Shown here piece by piece: positions 6,914 through 27,509 of a DNA stretch of 29,049 nucleotides (position 1 is its first letter; every line of letters starts with the position of its first letter). A program made the position numbers and the translations under genes. The notes under the pieces were generated by a model. The model searched no databases. It was not told where the DNA came from and saw only the letters and a program-made list of their open reading frames with translations. Source of the DNA: a virus. The stretch covers positions 1-29,049 of IMG/VR virus record IMGVR_UViG_3300044634_005102; one strand, 5' to 3'.

Positions 6914-7107
6914 AAATAAGTGCCGCAGAATTACCGCAGAATTACCGCAGAATAGAAATTATGCGGCACAGGATGACTGCCGCAAAATTAGTGCCGCATA
7001 ATCCCCCCTTAAAGGGGGGGAATTATTCTGCGGCACTTAATTTTTCGGCGTCGTCATTTCCGTCCTGTAATTGCCGCAAAATAGATTTGTGCGGTAGCAC
7101 ACTATGA
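6910..7107 (+). CDS. Doubtful short ORF spanning the iteron-like array
   Basis: This 65-codon ORF starts at an ATGA overlap with the helicase stop and ends in an ATGA overlap with the next start, so its spacing fits the operon. However, its sequence is read through the CCGCA repeats and has no domain (ELPQNYRRIEIMRHRM...). It may be a repeat-encoded peptide, a ribosome path linking the two genes, or a chance frame. Kept as doubtful. Confidence 0.25.
   Translation: MKISAAELPQNYRRIEIMRHRMTAAKLVPHNPPLKGGNYSAALNFSASSFPSCNCRKIDLCGSTL
6921..7096. repeat. Iteron-like CCGCA repeat array, candidate origin
   Basis: About nine copies of a core TGCCGCA(G/A/T)AAT occur here. Three are exact or near-exact tandem 11-mers (6921-6931, 6932-6942, 6943-6953). 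Further copies are at 6957-6968 (reverse), 6978-6990, 6991-7002, 7024-7034 (reverse), 7071-7083, and a partial reverse copy at 7087-7096. An 11-bp period places sites on one DNA face. The array follows the helicase and precedes a structured inverted repeat, which is how phage and plasmid origins are often built. A repressor array is the alternative. Confidence 0.6.
6990..7037. repeat. Large imperfect inverted repeat inside the iteron array
   Basis: AGTGCCGCA (6990-6998) pairs with TGCGGCACT (7029-7037). Inside, TAAT (6999-7002) pairs with ATTA (7022-7025) after a 3-nt bulge, and C6 (7003-7008) pairs with the G run at 7014-7020 around a short TTAAA loop. The arms carry the iteron core itself. 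The structure could be an origin cruciform or an RNA hairpin. It lacks a following T tract, so it is not a typical terminator. Confidence 0.55.
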
Positions 7108-8570: not shown

Positions 8571-8764
8571 CGCCAAACGAAATGCTTTCTATGATTGCGC
8601 AGCTACGGCGCGAGCGCAATGAGGCTTTGGCTCAAGTCAAAGAGTTAATTTATATTTCAGAACGCGCTATTGCGCTCGCGGACATTGATTATGAGAACGA
8701 CAAGTTCGGCGTTGTCTCCGAACTCCGATCCGATCTGGAAAAAATAAAGGGGGGCGCGAAATGA
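8567..8764 (+). CDS. Small coiled-coil protein (accessory cluster, copy 1)
   Basis: This 65-residue protein starts at an ATGA overlap. It contains QLRRERNEALAQVKEL near residues 12-27, a heptad-type helix related to KLERERDEA-containing neighbours, and it ends KGGAK at the repeated junction. The local sequence is AT-richer than the flanking head genes. Such short proteins are common phage accessory genes with unknown function. Confidence 0.6.
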   Translation: MTPNEMLSMIAQLRRERNEALAQVKELIYISERAIALADIDYENDKFGVVSELRSDLEKIKGGAK

Positions 8765-9168: not shown

Positions 9169-9404
9169 CCGCTAAAGAAGTGAGCTTTAATGGCGAGGCA
9201 AATATCTTCACCCCTACTCGCTTTTCGGATTTAGCCCACCAGCGTTTAACCATTCGGTTTTTAAAAGGAAGAACTGAGCACCTAAGCAGGGCGCAAGAAA
9301 TGCCTAATCATTTCTTTTGGAACAGAGAAACGGAAACTTTCTACTACATCAACCGTGCAAAAAGGTTGTTTCGCGTCGAGTTTGTTGAGGAGGGCGCGAA
9401 ATGA
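9165..9404 (+). CDS. Small protein of accessory cluster, unknown
   Basis: This 79-residue protein starts at the ATGA in the second copy of the junction repeat and ends EEGAK at the third. It lacks the ERDEA motif and looks mixed alpha/beta with aromatic residues (NHFFWNRETETFYYINRAKRLFRVEF). No domain is recognised. An upstream in-frame extension to 9075 would lie inside the previous gene. Confidence 0.55.
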   Translation: MTAKEVSFNGEANIFTPTRFSDLAHQRLTIRFLKGRTEHLSRAQEMPNHFFWNRETETFYYINRAKRLFRVEFVEEGAK

Positions 9405-18386: not shown

Positions 18387-19232
18387 ATGCCAAATACCCT
18401 TCGCATCAAACGCCGCTTAACCGGTGCCTCAGGCGCTCCCTCCAGTCTTGCTGTAGGTGAGTTGGCCTATTCAAAAGTAGACAACAAACTTTGGATCGGT
18501 CTTGACGACCAAATCAAAGTCCTCGCCGGTGAGGGCCATTTTGCCACAAACGCAAACCTCGCCTCCGAAGTCTCCACGCTGAACTCCAGCATCAGCTCGG
18601 AAACCTCCCGCGCCACCGCAGCGGAAGCCGCCCTCGGCACCCGCATTGACAATGTTCTCTCGAATGTCACTCCCGGCTCGCTCGATTCGTTGACGGAAGT
18701 CGTCGCCGCCTTCGAGGCCGCCGACAGCAACCTCAACGGAGCCATCACTAGCCTCGCCAACAGCGCCTCCAGCGCCCTGACCGCCGAGGTCAACCGCGCC
18801 ACCGCAGCCGAAGGCGTCATCGCCGCCGGTCTCGCTCAAGAGCTTCTTGACCGCGCCGCAGCCGACACCACCCTCCAGGGCAACATCAACACCGTTGCAG
18901 GCAATCTCTCCAGCGAGACATCGGCCCGCCAAGCGGCTGACACCACCCTCCAGAACAATATCGACAGCGAAGCCAGCACCCGTGCTTCGGCCATCAGCGC
19001 CCTCGATAGCCGAGTGGTCGCGCTCGAAGGTGCCTCCGCCGACGCCCGCCTCGACGAGGTGGAGTCCGACATTGCTGCCATTGAATCCGCCGCGACAGCC
19101 TTGACTGGCCGCGTCTCCAGCTTGGAGACCACCGCAGCCGGACTCGGCACCATGTCCACGCAGAATGCCAACAATGTCGCCATCACCGGCGGCACCATCG
19201 AAGGCATCGAGCTGGACGGCGGCAGCTTCTAA
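18387..19232 (+). CDS. Tail fibre with long coiled coil
   Basis: This 281-residue protein starts LRIKRRLTGASGAPSSLAVG ... SKVDNKLWIG, a typical virion-attachment N-terminus of phage fibres (about 1-45). Residues 60-240 are rich in repeated A/S/T/D/N heptads (SSETSRATAAEAALGTRI, SSETSARQAADTTLQ, ...), expected to form a trimeric coiled coil. The C-terminus is short (ITGGTIEGIELDGGSF), without a clear receptor domain. A hairpin and AT-rich leader follow. Confidence 0.75.
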   Translation: MPNTLRIKRRLTGASGAPSSLAVGELAYSKVDNKLWIGLDDQIKVLAGEGHFATNANLASEVSTLNSSISSETSRATAAEAALGTRIDNVLSNVTPGSLDSLTEVVAAFEAADSNLNGAITSLANSASSALTAEVNRATAAEGVIAAGLAQELLDRAAADTTLQGNINTVAGNLSSETSARQAADTTLQNNIDSEASTRASAISALDSRVVALEGASADARLDEVESDIAAIESAATALTGRVSSLETTAAGLGTMSTQNANNVAITGGTIEGIELDGGSF

Positions 19233-19250
19233 TAGCTCCCTCCCCCCACA

Positions 19251-19281
19251 GCGGCGGTGCGGTTCCAGCCCGCGCCGCCGC
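19251..19281. other. GC-rich hairpin between fibre genes
   Basis: GCGGCGGTGCG (19251-19261) pairs with CGCGCCGCCGC (19271-19281) with one G-U pair, 11 bp with a 9-nt loop. No T tract follows directly. It could reduce read-through or stabilise the upstream mRNA end. Confidence 0.4.
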
Positions 19282-19294
19282 CACGGGGCCACTG

Positions 19295-19318
19295 CTTAAA
19301 ACTTAATTCTTAAAACTT
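19295..19318. repeat. AT-rich leader repeat, first copy
   Basis: CTTAAAACTTAA (19295-19306) and CTTAAAACTT (19309-19318) stand just before the ATG of the fibre-type gene at 19323. The same words occur before the gene at 26841 (26819-26834). The repeat may be a late promoter or translation leader shared by two fibre-type genes, or a host-type intergenic repeat. Confidence 0.45.
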
Positions 19319-19322
19319 CTCC

Positions 19323-19691
19323 ATGGCCACGGTCTTCAAGCTCCTCCGCTCCACGGTTCCCGGCCGAGTCCCTACCGCCGCGCAAGTGGCCCAAGGCTCC
19401 CTCGCCCTCAACCTCGCCGACCGGCGCTTGTATTCCAAGGACCACACCAACGAAGTTTTCAGAATAGCCCGTCCCCGCGACCCCTCGGACTACCAACTCC
19501 TGCACGCTGCGGACGGCAACCACCTCTACCTCGGCCGCCTCGCTTGGGCAGACTTCCCCGCCTCCGGCCCCGCCGAGGACTCCACCGCCTGGACCATCTA
19601 CAAAATCACCACCGACGCCGCAGGCAATGTCGTCTCGGAGCAATCCGCAGTCGGCGCGTGGTCTTCCAAAGAGTCTCTTCAATTTTCTTAA
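19323..19691 (+). CDS. Fibre adaptor-like protein
   Basis: This 122-residue protein starts with FKLLRSTVPGRVPTAAQVAQ and GSLALNLADRRLYSKD, the same kind of N-terminal fibre-attachment module as the gene at 18387. The remainder contains WADFPASGPAEDSTAW and a strand-rich tail. It is probably a short fibre or adaptor. It starts after the AT-rich leader repeat and has no Shine-Dalgarno. Confidence 0.65.
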   Translation: MATVFKLLRSTVPGRVPTAAQVAQGSLALNLADRRLYSKDHTNEVFRIARPRDPSDYQLLHAADGNHLYLGRLAWADFPASGPAEDSTAWTIYKITTDAAGNVVSEQSAVGAWSSKESLQFS

Positions 19692-21966: not shown

Positions 21967-22149
21967 ATGGACACGCACCAAGCCACCGCCTCGTTCACCG
22001 GGCTGCTTGCTACGGCGAGCGGCCTCACGCTCTCCATGCTGCCGGAGCTGGAAGCGTGGCTGCGTGTGGCTTCGCTCGTCATCGGCTGCCTCGTCGGTCT
22101 CGCCTCGCTCTATGCAATCCTACGCAACAAAAAGCACCCCCATGAATAA
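21967..22149 (+). CDS. Holin-like membrane protein
   Basis: This 60-residue protein has hydrophobic segments at about 10-27 (FTGLLATASGLTLSML) and 31-52 (LRVASLVIGCLVGLASLYAIL), then a charged tail (RNKKHPHE). Small two-pass proteins ahead of a lysis enzyme are typical holins, which make holes in the inner membrane at lysis. It begins 2 bp after the fibre gene and overlaps the next gene by 8 bp. Confidence 0.65.
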   Translation: MDTHQATASFTGLLATASGLTLSMLPELEAWLRVASLVIGCLVGLASLYAILRNKKHPHE

Positions 22150-22309
22150 ATTCCTCTCGCACTTAAAACAACCGTCCACCTTTCGCGGCCTCGCCATCCT
22201 TGCCGGACTCGGCGGTATCGCCGTTGACCCCGCCCAGGTCAACGCCATCGCGGCCGCCGTGGCAGCAATCATCGCCCTCATCGAGGTATTCCGCAAGGAA
22301 TCCAAATGA
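22142..22309 (+). CDS. Second small membrane protein, holin/antiholin-like
   Basis: This 55-residue protein has basic N-terminal MNKFLSHLKQPSTFRG, then hydrophobic stretches at about 17-30 and 34-49 (NAIAAAVAAIIALIEVF), and ends FRKESK. Similar small phage membrane proteins with PSTxRGLA starts occur in lysis regions. It may be a holin or antiholin partner of the preceding gene. It overlaps that gene and the next (ATGA at 22306). Confidence 0.6.
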   Translation: MNKFLSHLKQPSTFRGLAILAGLGGIAVDPAQVNAIAAAVAAIIALIEVFRKESK

Positions 22310-22495: not shown

Positions 22496-23041
22496 ATGCT
22501 CCCCCCGAGCCGCCCACAGCAAGCGAAGTCCAAGACGCAAGCCCTGCTCACCAAGGCCCGCGTGGATGATGCCGTGGCGCTTGTGGGCATTCGAGGCTAC
22601 TACCGCGACAGCATGGGAGTCCCAGGCGAGAACGACCGAGGCATCTACGACGACGCCATTTTCCTCGTCTCGCCAAACGCCTACGCCACCTTCAACGCCA
22701 ACACCGATCCGAGCGTGAAGCGCCAAGGCATCGCTGTGCTGAAGCCCGGCGTGCATCGCTACCGCAAAGGCAAACACGGCCTCAGCAAGCCTGGCGGCGG
22801 CTACCCCGCCCTCCGCCCCGCAAACCCCGCTGAAGAACTCCCCGTGACCCGCGACGGCACGGGCGACAGTATGGGCATCGCAATCAACATCCACAAAGGG
22901 GGCTTCCGCACCACCAGCAGCGAAGGCTGCCAGACCATTTACCCCAGCCAGTGGGAGTCTTTCATTTCCCTGGTCTATTCCGAAATGGACCGCGCCGGGC
23001 AGAAGACAATCCCTTACCTGCTCGTCGAGGAGGAAGCATGA
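22496..23041 (+). CDS. Putative endolysin, L,D-transpeptidase-like
   Basis: This 181-residue protein carries H133 (INIHKGG) and S142-E-G-C145 (TSSEGCQT), resembling the HG...SHGC catalytic set of YkuD L,D-transpeptidase-type enzymes, though the usual Arg after Cys-x is absent. An N-terminal part (residues 25-60, GIRGYYRDSMGVPGEN) is shared by a group of phage lysis-region proteins. By position it is the cell-wall enzyme (or its substitute) of the lysis cassette. An amidase or peptidase function is possible. No signal peptide is visible, so it would need the holin. Confidence 0.6.
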   Translation: MLPPSRPQQAKSKTQALLTKARVDDAVALVGIRGYYRDSMGVPGENDRGIYDDAIFLVSPNAYATFNANTDPSVKRQGIAVLKPGVHRYRKGKHGLSKPGGGYPALRPANPAEELPVTRDGTGDSMGIAINIHKGGFRTTSSEGCQTIYPSQWESFISLVYSEMDRAGQKTIPYLLVEEEA

Positions 23042-23268
23042 GCGCCAAACGCAAGCCCGCCACCCGCAAAGCCGTGCTGGAGCGCATCCGAAAAGAACTC
23101 GTCGAGCAATTCGATGTCGGTCTTGCAGTAGTCTCTTGGGAAGAGGGCGGCGAGACATTCCACATGGATTTTAAATTCGGGAACGAATACGCGGTCGAAA
23201 AGCTCGCCGAGCGGACCAGCGACATTTTGTTCCCGTTTGAAGACGAAGAAGAGGAGGAAGAAGTATGA
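23038..23268 (+). CDS. Small protein with acidic C-terminus, unknown
   Basis: This 76-residue protein has a basic N-terminal helix (KRKPATRKAVLERIRKELV), a short beta region (FDVGLAVVSWEEGGETFHMDF) and an Asp/Glu tail (FEDEEEEEEV). No family is recognised. It starts with an ATGA overlap after GAGGAGGAAG, and its stop overlaps the next start, so it is coupled to both neighbours. Confidence 0.55.
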   Translation: MSAKRKPATRKAVLERIRKELVEQFDVGLAVVSWEEGGETFHMDFKFGNEYAVEKLAERTSDILFPFEDEEEEEEV

Positions 23269-24251
23269 AGACCAACAGGCTGCAAAACATCGTTCACGCC
23301 AGCCAAGTCGCCGCCGCGCAAAACGAGGCTGCGCAAGCGCGAGCGCAACTTGAGGCCGAGCGCCGCGCACACGCCGAGACCGTCAAGGCTCTTGAGCGTT
23401 CGCGTTTCACGAAGCCGCCGCGCAAAGTTGCTCCGCGCATCTCCAAGGCCGGGACCGGAGACATTGTTGAAGTGATTTTTTCTGATGTCCACGGCAACAA
23501 GCACGACCCTGCCGCGATGGCTGCTTTCCTCGCAGACCTCAAATCCATCAATCCAGACCGCCTCATCATCGGCGGCGATTTTATCGACTGCGGCGGATTC
23601 TTGGCCGAGCACCACGCGCTTGGCTATGTGGCAGAGACCGAGGACAGCTACGAAGACGACATCGCCGTCTCCAACAGTCTCCTCGACCAAATCCTTGCTG
23701 CCGCCTCGCCCTCTGAGGTGCATTATGTAGAAGGCAACCATGAATGGCGTGTCGAGCGGTGGGCGCTCACCCAACGCCTCGCGCACCACAAGGATACCGA
23801 CCTCCTTCGCCGCACCTTTTGTGCCGAGCATGTGCTGAGGCTCAAAGACCGAGGCATCCGCTACTACCACCAAGGCAAAACCCACGGCGATTGCGACACG
23901 CCAGGCTGGGTCAAAATCGACAAGGCGTTTTTCGTGCACAAAATCAGCAACGCCCGCGACGCCGCTGGACAAGCTATGGCCAAGGCCGCCGCGAATATCG
24001 TCTTCTTCGACACCCACCGTGCCGCCTACAAGCCCATGCACCTCCCCGGCGTTGGCCTCATTTCCGCCTGGAACCCCGGCTGCCTGTGCAAACGCCAGCC
24101 CCTCTACGCCAACACCCGCCCCACAGAATGGACCCACGGCTACCTCGTCCGCTTCATCAGCAAAAAGACCGGCAACTTCCAGATGGTGAATGTCACCATC
24201 AACGAAGGCACCAGCTACGCCAGCCTCCTCCTCAAACCCAAGTCCGCATGA
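23265..24251 (+). CDS. Metallophosphoesterase (calcineurin-like)
   Basis: This 328-residue protein has an N-terminal coiled coil (about 10-45, rich in A/E/R), then the phosphoesterase motifs: D74-V-H76 (FSDVHGN), D105 with D108 (GGDFID), N158-H159 (EGNHEW), H225 (FFVHK) and D249-T-H251 (FFDTHRA). The last motif normally reads GHxH; here the first His is replaced by Asp. It could hydrolyse nucleotides or phosphoproteins with two metals. It lies between the lysis cassette and tail genes. It starts at an ATGA overlap after GAGGAGGAAGAAG. Confidence 0.8.
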   Translation: MKTNRLQNIVHASQVAAAQNEAAQARAQLEAERRAHAETVKALERSRFTKPPRKVAPRISKAGTGDIVEVIFSDVHGNKHDPAAMAAFLADLKSINPDRLIIGGDFIDCGGFLAEHHALGYVAETEDSYEDDIAVSNSLLDQILAAASPSEVHYVEGNHEWRVERWALTQRLAHHKDTDLLRRTFCAEHVLRLKDRGIRYYHQGKTHGDCDTPGWVKIDKAFFVHKISNARDAAGQAMAKAAANIVFFDTHRAAYKPMHLPGVGLISAWNPGCLCKRQPLYANTRPTEWTHGYLVRFISKKTGNFQMVNVTINEGTSYASLLLKPKSA

Positions 24252-24703: not shown

Positions 24704-26779
24704 ATGCCCGATGACCAAACAATCGTAGAAGGCGACGCCGGATTCCTCGGCATGGCCTCCCGCCTCAACCCGCTGCAACTCCAGCCGGGCATGGTCCAGT
24801 ATTGTGAAAACATGCGCCTCGACCGAGGCGTGGCGCAGACCCGCAAAGGGGCGAAGCGGCTGGGAGAATCCATCGGCTACATTGGCGAGGCGCTGACCGT
24901 TCCTTTCCAACTTGGAACGGACAAAACAATCTCCTCACTGACTCGCGGCGGCAACGGAAACCTCACGGCTACGGCCACTCTCGCCGCGCATGGCTACGCC
25001 ACCGGAGACCGAATCAACATTCGCGGAGCCTCGCCTGCGCAATACAACGGCGACTTCTACATCACGGCCACCGACGCAAATGCCTTCACCTACACGATGG
25101 CTGCCGACCCCGGCGCAAACGCCACCGGAACGCTTGTGGCCAACAAGGGGCCTATTGTTCAAACGACCTACACCGGAGGCATCATCGGAGCGGGCATTTA
25201 CTCCTCGCCGCGCCTGGACAATTCCAACGAATACATCGTCCTTGCCGGACCAAACTCTGTTTACCTCTGGCGCGACGGCGCGAATCTCCAGACGATTCAG
25301 CTTCCCAATACCGACACGCTGGTTGCTGGCGATGACATCGAGATCATCCAAGCCTTCGACAAACTCTACCTGCTGCGCACCCGCGAGGAGTCGCTGATCC
25401 GCCTCCAGACGCTCACGCAGGCCAGCGGCACGGCCACAGCTACCACGCTGGGCACGCACCCCTACCAAACCGGCGAGGTGGTGCGCATCAGCGGGGCAGG
25501 GGAGGCCGGTTACTTGGCCGACTTTGAGGTGACGCGGATTTCCTCCACGCAGTTTTCGTTTTCTGTTCCCTCCGCCACGGCGGCTTCTGCCAACGGCACG
25601 ATTATTTCCCAGCGTGTGCAGCCTGCCTTGGTGTGGGATGGCATCCTGGCAAATGGTTTCTCCCGCGTCGCGCAGGGATCGCATCCGCTGGGCGTGACCT
25701 ACTCGCGCCTGCCCAGCACCAGCACGGCGACTTACTACAACAACCAACTCGTCATCGCCCGCAACCGCGACGAGGTGCTGATTTCGGATGTTTTCGACGC
25801 CGAGACCTACGATCCGGTGAGCAAGGCATTCCGCGCCAACTCGGGCTCGAACGACTACATCGTGGCCCTGCACCCCTATGCCGAGGGCCAAGTTCTCGTC
25901 TTCTGCCGCAAATCTATCTGGCTCGCCACGGCGGCCATCGGCACGGATGGCGTTTCGATTGACCCCGCCGCTTCCAGCCTGCAACTCCTCACCGACGAGA
26001 TCGGCTGCTCGGCCAAGCGATCCATCGCTACCGCAGGCGTGTATGTGTTTTTCCTCTCGGACAATGGCGTTTACCGGCTGGACAATCAATTTGACCTCAA
26101 GCTGCGCGGCAGCACTCAGACTCTCTCGGACCCCATCGCCGACCTCATCGCCGAGATCAACGCCCCGGCAGCGCACCTGAGCAACGGCATTTATTTTGCG
26201 AACCGCTACTACCTCGCCGTGCCGCTCGGCACCAGCACCGAGCCGAACGCCCTCTTCGCCTTCAACATGCTGAACCAGCAGTGGGAGACCAAAGACATCT
26301 ACGGCTTCCCGTTGAACCGCCTGCTCGTCTCCGACTACGGCACACAGCGCCGCCTCTTCACGGCCACCACCACCGGCAAACTCTTCCTCCTCGATGAGCA
26401 AGAGACCGGAGCCGACGATACCCAAAGCGGCCTCGGCAGCACCCCTGTCCTCGGCAGTCTCCTGACCCGCCGCTACGGCTGGGGAAGCCTCAACGCCAAA
26501 CGCCTGACCCGCACCAAGGCCAGCGTCGTCCTGTCCGCTGGAAGCGCCTGCACGCTCGATGCGGTGACGACGGATTTCGACGCTGATTTCCAGATCGCCT
26601 CCTTAGTGAACACCACCGCCGACCAAGAGGACTACACGCTGAAGGCTCCGCTGCGCTGCAAGGCAACCGCCCTCGACCTCCGCTTCCGCACCACCTCCGG
26701 CCGCCCCATCCTCCGCACCCTCGCCGCCGAGGCGACAATCAACGGGCCGGTGAGTGCCGAAACCCGAACCTTAAACTAA
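24704..26779 (+). CDS. Tail tubular/stopper protein (T7 gp12/P22 gp10-like)
   Basis: This 691-residue beta-rich protein fits the family of podovirus tail-hub or stopper proteins that seal the portal: its length, the N-terminal LNPLQLQPGMVQYCENMRLDRG signature of gene products that bind the connector, and repeated beta strands. Two similar inserts (about 86-143 and 241-300: ATGDRINIRGASPAQYNGDFY, QTGEVVRISGAGEAGYLADF) resemble a small beta domain also present in the fibre at 19994. It follows the AT start GTAGATG with no Shine-Dalgarno. Confidence 0.75.
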   Translation: MPDDQTIVEGDAGFLGMASRLNPLQLQPGMVQYCENMRLDRGVAQTRKGAKRLGESIGYIGEALTVPFQLGTDKTISSLTRGGNGNLTATATLAAHGYATGDRINIRGASPAQYNGDFYITATDANAFTYTMAADPGANATGTLVANKGPIVQTTYTGGIIGAGIYSSPRLDNSNEYIVLAGPNSVYLWRDGANLQTIQLPNTDTLVAGDDIEIIQAFDKLYLLRTREESLIRLQTLTQASGTATATTLGTHPYQTGEVVRISGAGEAGYLADFEVTRISSTQFSFSVPSATAASANGTIISQRVQPALVWDGILANGFSRVAQGSHPLGVTYSRLPSTSTATYYNNQLVIARNRDEVLISDVFDAETYDPVSKAFRANSGSNDYIVALHPYAEGQVLVFCRKSIWLATAAIGTDGVSIDPAASSLQLLTDEIGCSAKRSIATAGVYVFFLSDNGVYRLDNQFDLKLRGSTQTLSDPIADLIAEINAPAAHLSNGIYFANRYYLAVPLGTSTEPNALFAFNMLNQQWETKDIYGFPLNRLLVSDYGTQRRLFTATTTGKLFLLDEQETGADDTQSGLGSTPVLGSLLTRRYGWGSLNAKRLTRTKASVVLSAGSACTLDAVTTDFDADFQIASLVNTTADQEDYTLKAPLRCKATALDLRFRTTSGRPILRTLAAEATINGPVSAETRTLN

Positions 26780-26780
26780 C

Positions 26781-26807
26781 CACAGAGGACACAGAGAACA
26801 CAGAGGA
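26781..26807. repeat. Three tandem 9-bp CACAGAGRA repeats
   Basis: CACAGAGGA (26781-26789), CACAGAGAA (26790-26798) and CACAGAGGA (26799-26807) follow the tail tubular gene. Sequences of this sort (ACCACAGAGGACACAGAG...) occur as dispersed intergenic repeats in many environmental bacterial genomes, as I recall. Here it stands directly before the leader of the collar gene, so it may be host DNA picked up by the phage. Confidence 0.6.
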
Positions 26808-26818
26808 CGCCTCTTAAT

Positions 26819-26834
26819 CCTTAAAACTTAAAAC
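26819..26834. repeat. AT-rich leader repeat, second copy
   Basis: CCTTAAAACTTAAAAC (26819-26834) lies 6 bp before the collar gene and matches the leader at 19295-19318 before another fibre-type gene. Both precede ATGGC. A shared late control element is possible. Confidence 0.45.
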
Positions 26835-26840
26835 TCAAAA

Positions 26841-27509
26841 ATGGCAACCGTCACCCCAGGCTACACATTTACAAACGATGAAGTCGTTACCCCAGCAAAG
26901 CTCAACTCGGCGGCTACGCCAACGGTAGCCCTCGCAAATAACGAGGTGACAACTTCAACAATCGCTGATGGCGCTGTCACTCAAGCCAAGCTCAACTCCA
27001 GCGTCACACTTGTGCCGACCGGAGCGATCATGCCGTTTGCCATGAACACCGCGCCAAGTGGATGGCTCGCAGCCAATGGATCGGCAGTGTCTCGCACGGC
27101 TTTTGCCGCTCTCTTTGCAGCCATCGGGACAACTTACGGTGCTGGCGATGGTAGCACCACATTTACCCTTCCTGACTTGCGTGGATATTTCGTGCGAGGA
27201 TCAGGCACGAATAGCGATGGCGTTGCCGCTGGCACTTTTGGAGCCAAGCAAGCGGATGGAGTGATCAGCCATACGCATTCTGGCACCACAGGACATGACT
27301 ATCCAGATCATGCGCATAGCCATAGCGCGGCAAGTGGCGGAAGTTCTTATTATATGTATGGTGGAGGAGGTCTTGGAACATTTGGAGGCTCGACCAATGG
27401 CGCTTCTACCCGCCACCAGCACGATTTCACTACCAGTAGCCAATCCCCCGCAGGCGCGACCGAGACCCGCCCGCGCAACATAGCCATGTTGTATTGCATC
27501 AAAGCCTAA
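26841..27509 (+). CDS. Tail collar-domain fibre
   Basis: This 222-residue protein has a tail collar domain (Phage_collar type): VPTGAIMPFAMNTAPSGWL, then GTTYGAGDGSTTFTLPDLRG, and a His-rich region at about 145-165 (HTHSGTTGHDYPDHAHSH) likely to bind metal, as in T4 gp12-like short fibres. The C-terminus ends RPRNIAMLYCIKA, the usual end of collar proteins. It would help host binding. The AT-rich leader and CACAGAG repeats precede it. Confidence 0.85.
   Translation: MATVTPGYTFTNDEVVTPAKLNSAATPTVALANNEVTTSTIADGAVTQAKLNSSVTLVPTGAIMPFAMNTAPSGWLAANGSAVSRTAFAALFAAIGTTYGAGDGSTTFTLPDLRGYFVRGSGTNSDGVAAGTFGAKQADGVISHTHSGTTGHDYPDHAHSHSAASGGSSYYMYGGGGLGTFGGSTNGASTRHQHDFTTSSQSPAGATETRPRNIAMLYCIKA

Follow-up and report, generated by a model that had tools for sequence, protein, structure and literature searches.

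Heptamer repeats at late-gene junctions of an uncultured phage and of Terrimicrobiaceae-type Verrucomicrobia as candidate Shine-Dalgarno-free translation leaders

The stretch of DNA analysed here, referred to as the window, is the IMG/VR virus record IMGVR_UViG_3300044634_005102 (29,049 bases), whose gene set includes a Sak4-like annealing protein, an exonuclease, a terminase, and head scaffold-like, major head, fibre-like and tail collar proteins. The major head protein has distant relatives in 150 of 50,697 annotated phage records, mostly of Pseudomonas and Vibrio, all below 60% identity (best listed 31.9%), and the DNA of window positions 26700-26900 showed no similarity to the same 50,697 records. 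The genes and repeat modules at issue are collected in Table 1. The match of the 19323 gene to long tail fibre PHROGs is confined to about the first 45 residues, and Pfam gave no match for the products of this gene, of the 22142 gene or of the gene beginning MLPPSRPQ (the MLPP gene). Two further repeats were observed elsewhere in the window: a perfect 2.8-copy tandem repeat of the unit CCGCAGAATTA at 6923-6953, and the junction GGGCGCGAA-ATG, common to two small genes, at 8752-8763 and 9392-9403.

Table 1. Coordinates of the junction modules and of the neighbouring genes in the window.
Feature	Position	Strand	Basis or remark
Second heptamer leader, without CACAGAG module	19295..19322	+	Direct reading, pattern scan
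Fibre-type gene, 122 aa, long-tail-fibre-like N-terminus	19323..19691	+	PHROG best 3.8e-9
Short gene MNKFLSHLK..., without leader in the window	22142..22309	+	Weak PHROG of unknown function
MLPP gene (MLPPSRPQ...), without composite in the window	22496..23041	+	phrog_3000, unknown function
Upstream gene, stop abuts nonamer module	24704..26779	+	Best PHROG unknown function; weaker: virion structural proteins
TAA stop of the 24704-26779 gene	26777..26779	+	One nt ahead of first CACAGAG
Module 1, three CACAGAGRA nonamers, stop-adjacent	26781..26808	+	Direct reading, Tandem Repeats Finder
Module 2, four heptamers of CTTAAAA type, in register to ATG	26813..26840	+	Direct reading
Collar-domain tail gene behind composite	26841..27509	+	Pfam PF07484 5.8e-25; PHROG tail collar fibre

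Direct reading confirmed what a sequence-only reading of the window had described, namely three CACAGAGRA units and an AT-rich leader ahead of the collar gene, and the leader again at the 19323 gene. The use of the leader at two sites stands, and its description as a single leader sequence does not, the leader itself being a tandem repeat of heptamers. At the collar gene it reads CTTAATC-CTTAAAA-CTTAAAA-CTCAAAA, with the ATG directly after, and at the fibre-type gene CTTAAAA-CTTAATT-CTTAAAA-CTTCTCC, then ATG. Tandem Repeats Finder reported 3.1 copies of the period-9 unit CACAGAGGA at 26781-26808 and 3.0 copies of the period-7 unit CTTAAAA at 26820-26840. The 12-mer CTTAAAACTTAA, allowing up to two mismatches, matches the window six times, all within the two leaders, compared with a mean of 0.57 matches in the shuffled window, where none of 100 shuffles reached six. 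A single CACAGAGRA with up to one mismatch occurs at chance level in the window (10 seen, 10.49 expected), and the singularity of the nonamers is limited to the exact tandem triple; each nonamer contains GAGG or GAGA. A structured RNA was considered and rejected, there being no Rfam match and no tRNA in the window, and both leaders folding like shuffles (z -0.21 and 0.53).

Viral relatives were collected through the head protein (70 loci) and by pattern (49 stretches carrying the nonamer triple, at least 120 carrying the 26-base leader of heptamers, and 83 in which nonamer and heptamer occur together). Among the matches listed, an ORF with a minimum length of 60 aa begins no more than 25 nt downstream of 96 of 121 distinct viral arrays, compared with 29.6% of random positions, and 20 of the 25 misses, judged by eye, precede a short MNKFL-type gene whose start lies at that point but whose length is below the cut. 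Of the distinct regions upstream of orthologues, 44 of 49 for the fibre-type gene, 19 of 33 for the MLPP gene and 12 of 26 for the collar gene carry a heptamer pair, as against none of 266 for seven other genes. A wider count, which takes in related sequences and so does not represent independent events, found both modules at 17 of 40 collar junctions (heptamers only 6, nonamers only 1, neither 16) and at 35 of 53 MLPP junctions (1, 1 and 16, respectively), heptamers only at 71 of 76 fibre-type junctions (neither 5), and heptamers only at 26 of 80 junctions of the 22142 gene (neither 54). Junctions without the leader thus occur at all four genes, so that the leader is dispensable, and the number of units differs among orthologues of the relatives. 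The proposed tie of the element to a fibre cassette does not hold, since in the relatives it also stands ahead of two other genes.

Sixty distinct composites were compared, that of the window among them, and in 55 the first CACAGAG is preceded, at exactly 1 nt, by the stop of an ORF; the genes behind the 60 are MLPP-type (37), collar-type (15) or another gene (2), with no ORF by the rule in six, and these counts too include related sequences. When all nonamer arrays on the 49 nonamer-triple stretches are taken, only 13 of 60 begin at stop+1. Seven of these 49 stretches represent the window's own collar junction (L005, L010, L013, L021, L029, L044 and L050), and the nonamers alone are therefore a weak host mark. 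The cassette consists of two modules with preferred places: the nonamers mostly stand directly past the upstream stop, and the heptamers run in sense to within a few nt of the next ATG. Nonamer plus heptamer elements were also seen outside the head-protein search results, on L014, L047, L261, L264 (3300009185_000039) and L006 (3300042546_001227); on L006 and L047 the arrangement CACAGAGGA-AT-ATG places the nonamer itself beside the start codon. Nonamer triples followed by an inverted copy, CTCTGTG, were seen on L023 (3660-3992 and 6399-6723, with spacings of 153 and 149 nt) and on L015, viral contigs without a link here to the window phage.

The suggestion that the repeats are of bacterial type is borne out, since both are present in genomes of one Verrucomicrobia family, taken here as 26 genomes including REEB449 and carrying the name Terrimicrobiaceae from one member MAG. 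The exact 26-base leader occurs at 24 places in nine of the 26 genomes (reversed-pattern control 0) and is absent from the other 187 genomes of the same order, while the 12-mer CTTAAAACTTAA occurs 186 times in the family genomes, as against 28 for the reversed pattern. The nonamer triple is present in 10 of the 26 genomes, and 6 of 16 and 5 of 9 nonamer arrays of the family begin 1 nt past the stop of an ORF, compared with 0.3-0.4% at random; two of these five look like one gene in two genomes. Three exact nonamers followed by heptamers occurred in no bacterial genome contigs scanned; a looser nonamer-heptamer composite was found in two of four genomes, once each. The stricter phage form CTTAAAACTTAATN... 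with a following ATG was found at two loci of Verrucomicrobia bacterium REEB449, and without ATG in the MAG titled Terrimicrobiaceae. Across named bacterial genomes CTTAAAACTTAANNCTTAAAACTTAA appears in many phyla among the matches listed, and the exact leader, likewise among the matches listed, also occurs in a Competibacteraceae MAG, ahead of an ATG, and at four Bacteroidota loci, two with ATG. The host specificity of the leader is incomplete.

The positions of the arrays in the host family were studied in 60 stretches from eight genomes, drawn from the matches listed and giving 76 distinct arrays. An ORF starting with ATG lies within 30 nt in the sense direction of 43 of these arrays and in the antisense direction of five, compared with 13.7% of random positions (sign test of sense against antisense 1.4e-8, with related arrays treated as independent); 33 of the 76 have no ATG-ORF inside 30 nt. 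In 29 of the 43 sense arrays the ATG is 5-14 nt from the last TTAA. Across the 26 genomes, CTTAAAACT-N(1-12)-ATG occurs 152 times (raw) versus 47 in the opposite orientation, with reversed-pattern controls of 39 and 100, respectively; by eye, at least 17 of the 152 have the ATG inside a unit (CTTAATG) and at least nine are double counts, leaving about 126. Outside the family, 28 of 102 arrays are sense and five antisense to a start (random 10.7%). Eleven of the arrays read, all from G002 (L457, L458, L467-L469), are part of larger dispersed repeats, and none of them stands before an ATG-ORF.

By the four-base rule of PMC4679880, none of 40 distinct host leader genes has a Shine-Dalgarno sequence, compared with 13 of 99 ORFs of a rough background and 7 of 28 genes of the window, for which starts were hand-chosen and the 22142 gene was left out. 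Gene identities were sought for 18 of the 40, and matches were obtained for 10 of 10 in a first batch and 7 of 8 in a second. The genes served include those for GroEL, FumC, EF-Ts, ribosomal proteins S4 and S16, ATP synthase epsilon and AspRS, as well as PilT, MetF and phosphogluconate dehydrogenase, and, in the second batch, ExbD, YqeY, PGI, chorismate mutase/prephenate dehydratase, TatD, a ThiS family protein and ArgRS. The operon position of the host leaders was set aside, because the TAA within the heptamers terminates many spurious open frames.

Some copies of the cassette contain a further element. REP elements carry family tags and have a RAYT transposase as partner. A palindrome of the form TTCGGGCTGCC-NNN-GGCAGNCTTTCT occurs at 12 places in 8 of the 26 family genomes (reversed-pattern control 0), and a longer pattern that includes the following heptamer occurs on five viral stretches. 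Among 14 distinct palindrome copies, eight lie between or beside sense heptamers and six elsewhere; five of the eight (three host, two phage) have, by eye, an ATG just behind. Over the core, five host copies share 84-88% identity with the two distinct phage copies, the next best being at most 0.62. An 8-pair hairpin is predicted in one copy, the fragment as a whole folding no better than shuffles (z 0.64), and the collar junction reported here is without the palindrome. As a dispersed and putatively extragenic palindrome, the TTCGGGCTGCC-NNN-GGCAGNCTTTCT element of some relatives and hosts would to that extent resemble REP elements as outlined in the parts of PMC3733652 drawn upon.

The closest known system is that of the TAACTGA heptamer direct repeats of marine Beggiatoaceae, for which a translational role was proposed (MacGregor 2015, PMC4679880). 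The portions of that paper used here describe several shared traits: two to six forward-oriented heptamer units that stop a few nt short of a start codon, rarity of Shine-Dalgarno sequences behind the repeats (0 of 40 host genes here), some essential genes among those served, ribosomal proteins included, and little predicted RNA structure. The present repeats differ from that system, as those portions present it, in their unit (CTTAAAA/CTTAATN), in the joining of the phage heptamers with stop-adjacent CACAGAG nonamers and in the hairpin nested inside some copies; they differ also in their occurrence in Verrucomicrobia and phages, and the main text of PMC4679880 contains no occurrence of phage, virus or Verrucomicrobia. 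By their unit the CTTAAAA leaders fall outside the TAACTGA set, which they resemble in anatomy. Long simple sequence repeats, among which heptamer units are the most frequent in the majority of genomes (Mrazek 2007; Guo and Mrazek 2008, as summarised in part of PMC4679880), likewise are tandem repeats of short units whose number can vary, and, on the same partial account, the present arrays differ from them in being bound to strand and start codon and in having few units. In the records returned by literature searches, CTTAAAACTTAA and ACACAGAGGACACAGAG occurred only in papers titled on other subjects, and nothing on point appeared for Verrucomicrobia with intergenic or phage repeats or for Terrimicrobiaceae with phage (including PMC11265339). 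PMC4679880 was the sole relevant paper on heptanucleotide or heptamer repeats, and none was found on phages sharing host repeats. Start-codon heptamer leaders are thus known, and for the unit, the host, the phage use and the composite no print record was found in the literature as far as those records extend.

Taken together, these sequence comparisons suggest, with a probability of roughly 0.55, that the elements are host-type gene-junction cassettes shared with the host, whose heptamers serve as translation leaders free of a Shine-Dalgarno sequence. A translation-initiation leader is favoured by place, strand, spacing, the lack of Shine-Dalgarno sequences and the housekeeping genes served. 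In such a mechanism the heptamers would be transcribed into the mRNA as an A/U-rich, G-free leader, which may recruit the 30S subunit without Shine-Dalgarno pairing, via ribosomal protein S1 or a dedicated RNA-binding protein, and a late gene inside an operon could thereby be started independently of the preceding gene. Collar junctions without the element, where often only a few nt part the upstream stop from the ATG, would resemble translational coupling, which like S1 binding is general background. The nonamers would most likely be a spacer, or possibly a weak purine-rich loading site; this is the least supported step. Predicted start accessibility of the phage genes did not support a translation leader: modelled values with and without the leader were 0.66 and 0.62 for the fibre-type gene and 0.72 and 0.72 for the collar gene, and for the MLPP gene accessibility was predicted to be lower with the leader (0.49 versus 0.68). 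The host contrast of 0.72 versus 0.47 is weak, because its background includes spurious ORFs.

The same arrays might act at the level of transcription, as a promoter or transcription-factor site with TTAA every 7 bp, transcription beginning from or just before the ATG. That the arrays are A/T-rich, repeated, near the start codon and sense-oriented would fit such a role, which is nevertheless unlikely: no -35/-10 hexamers at the usual spacing were found at 26600-26950 or 19150-19450 in a scan with the sigma-70 consensus, which may not be this family's, and host arrays ending 5-14 nt from the ATG in 29 of 43 cases leave too little room for a promoter, except with leaderless mRNA. Less probable again is that the arrays are functionless, neutral or selfish intergenic repeats, born of slippage or spread as small mobile elements. 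Their sporadic presence at orthologous junctions, the varying unit number between relatives, the many phyla with CTTAAAA repeats among the matches listed, and the 33 of 76 host arrays without an ATG-ORF behind them would all be expected of such repeats; the excess of sense over antisense (43 versus 5, and 152 versus 47 raw), the same strand bias outside the family and the absence of Shine-Dalgarno sequences from all 40 genes would not.

The collar junction bears on how the element came to its place. Where the element is absent, the upstream stop is often only a few nt ahead of the ATG, and comparison of junctions with and without the element gave similarities of 0.77 versus 0.62 for the upstream gene and 0.71 versus 0.70 for the downstream gene. 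The element at this junction therefore tracks the upstream gene and not the collar gene, which argues against its having been captured together with a fibre gene, as had been suggested. Use of the common sequences as recombination joints, by which phages would exchange fibre and other late genes, could draw on this same tracking, on the near-identical leaders ahead of four different genes and on the low up/down concordance where the element occurs (0.24-0.47 at its four junctions, compared with 0.65-0.75 at four of ten others), and is improbable: the other six of the ten fall in or below the same range (-0.10 to 0.38), with medians of 0.33 with and 0.36 without the element, so that mosaicism is not tied to the element.

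The host of the phage was approached through the head protein. Of the order's 213 genomes, five carry homologues, three of them in the family (REEB449, twice, G025 and G022) and two outside it, of which G196 has the highest identity (59%) and the other is partial. A contig of G025 encodes homologues of the window's scaffold-like protein (51%), head protein (47%), 24704 protein (49-72%) and 14718 protein (52%), the last a portal by position only, with no family match. It also encodes a metallophosphoesterase (L544 15780-16646, G025:C4) 92% identical over 289 residues to that at window positions 23265-24251, which, set against the 47% of the head proteins, looks like recent gene exchange. The 50 kb to the left of this prophage-like region hold bacterial genes, for example for IspH, fucokinase, dipeptidase and histidine kinases; two proteins scanned on the right flank gave no match, so that integration is read from one side. 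Neither heptamer nor nonamer pairs were found on the five stretches with head-protein homologues. The phage probably infects a verrucomicrobium belonging to Terrimicrobiaceae or close to it, the order being well supported and the family probable. The expectation that the repeats would help to identify the host thus holds insofar as they are shared with one Verrucomicrobia family in which one member genome has a related prophage; as a host mark in themselves they fall short, the nonamers alone being weak and the exact heptamer leader occurring in a few unrelated bacteria as well.

A wider proposal, put forward tentatively, is that Terrimicrobiaceae-type bacteria have in common with their phages a modular junction code that does not depend on Shine-Dalgarno sequences. 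It would be composed of stop-adjacent nonamers, an optional nested hairpin and start-adjacent heptamers, the last of which a dedicated RNA-binding or ribosome-associated factor would read, with host junctions having been taken up by the phage. If the leaders act as suggested, some late phage genes would be translated in the manner of host housekeeping genes, and the family would provide a second, well-bounded case of heptamer leaders ahead of housekeeping genes that lack a Shine-Dalgarno sequence. The phage and host versions of the leader, together with natural pairs with and without it at one junction, make a direct reporter test possible, and an uncultured phage group is linked to a bacterial family by common junction sequences and a related prophage.
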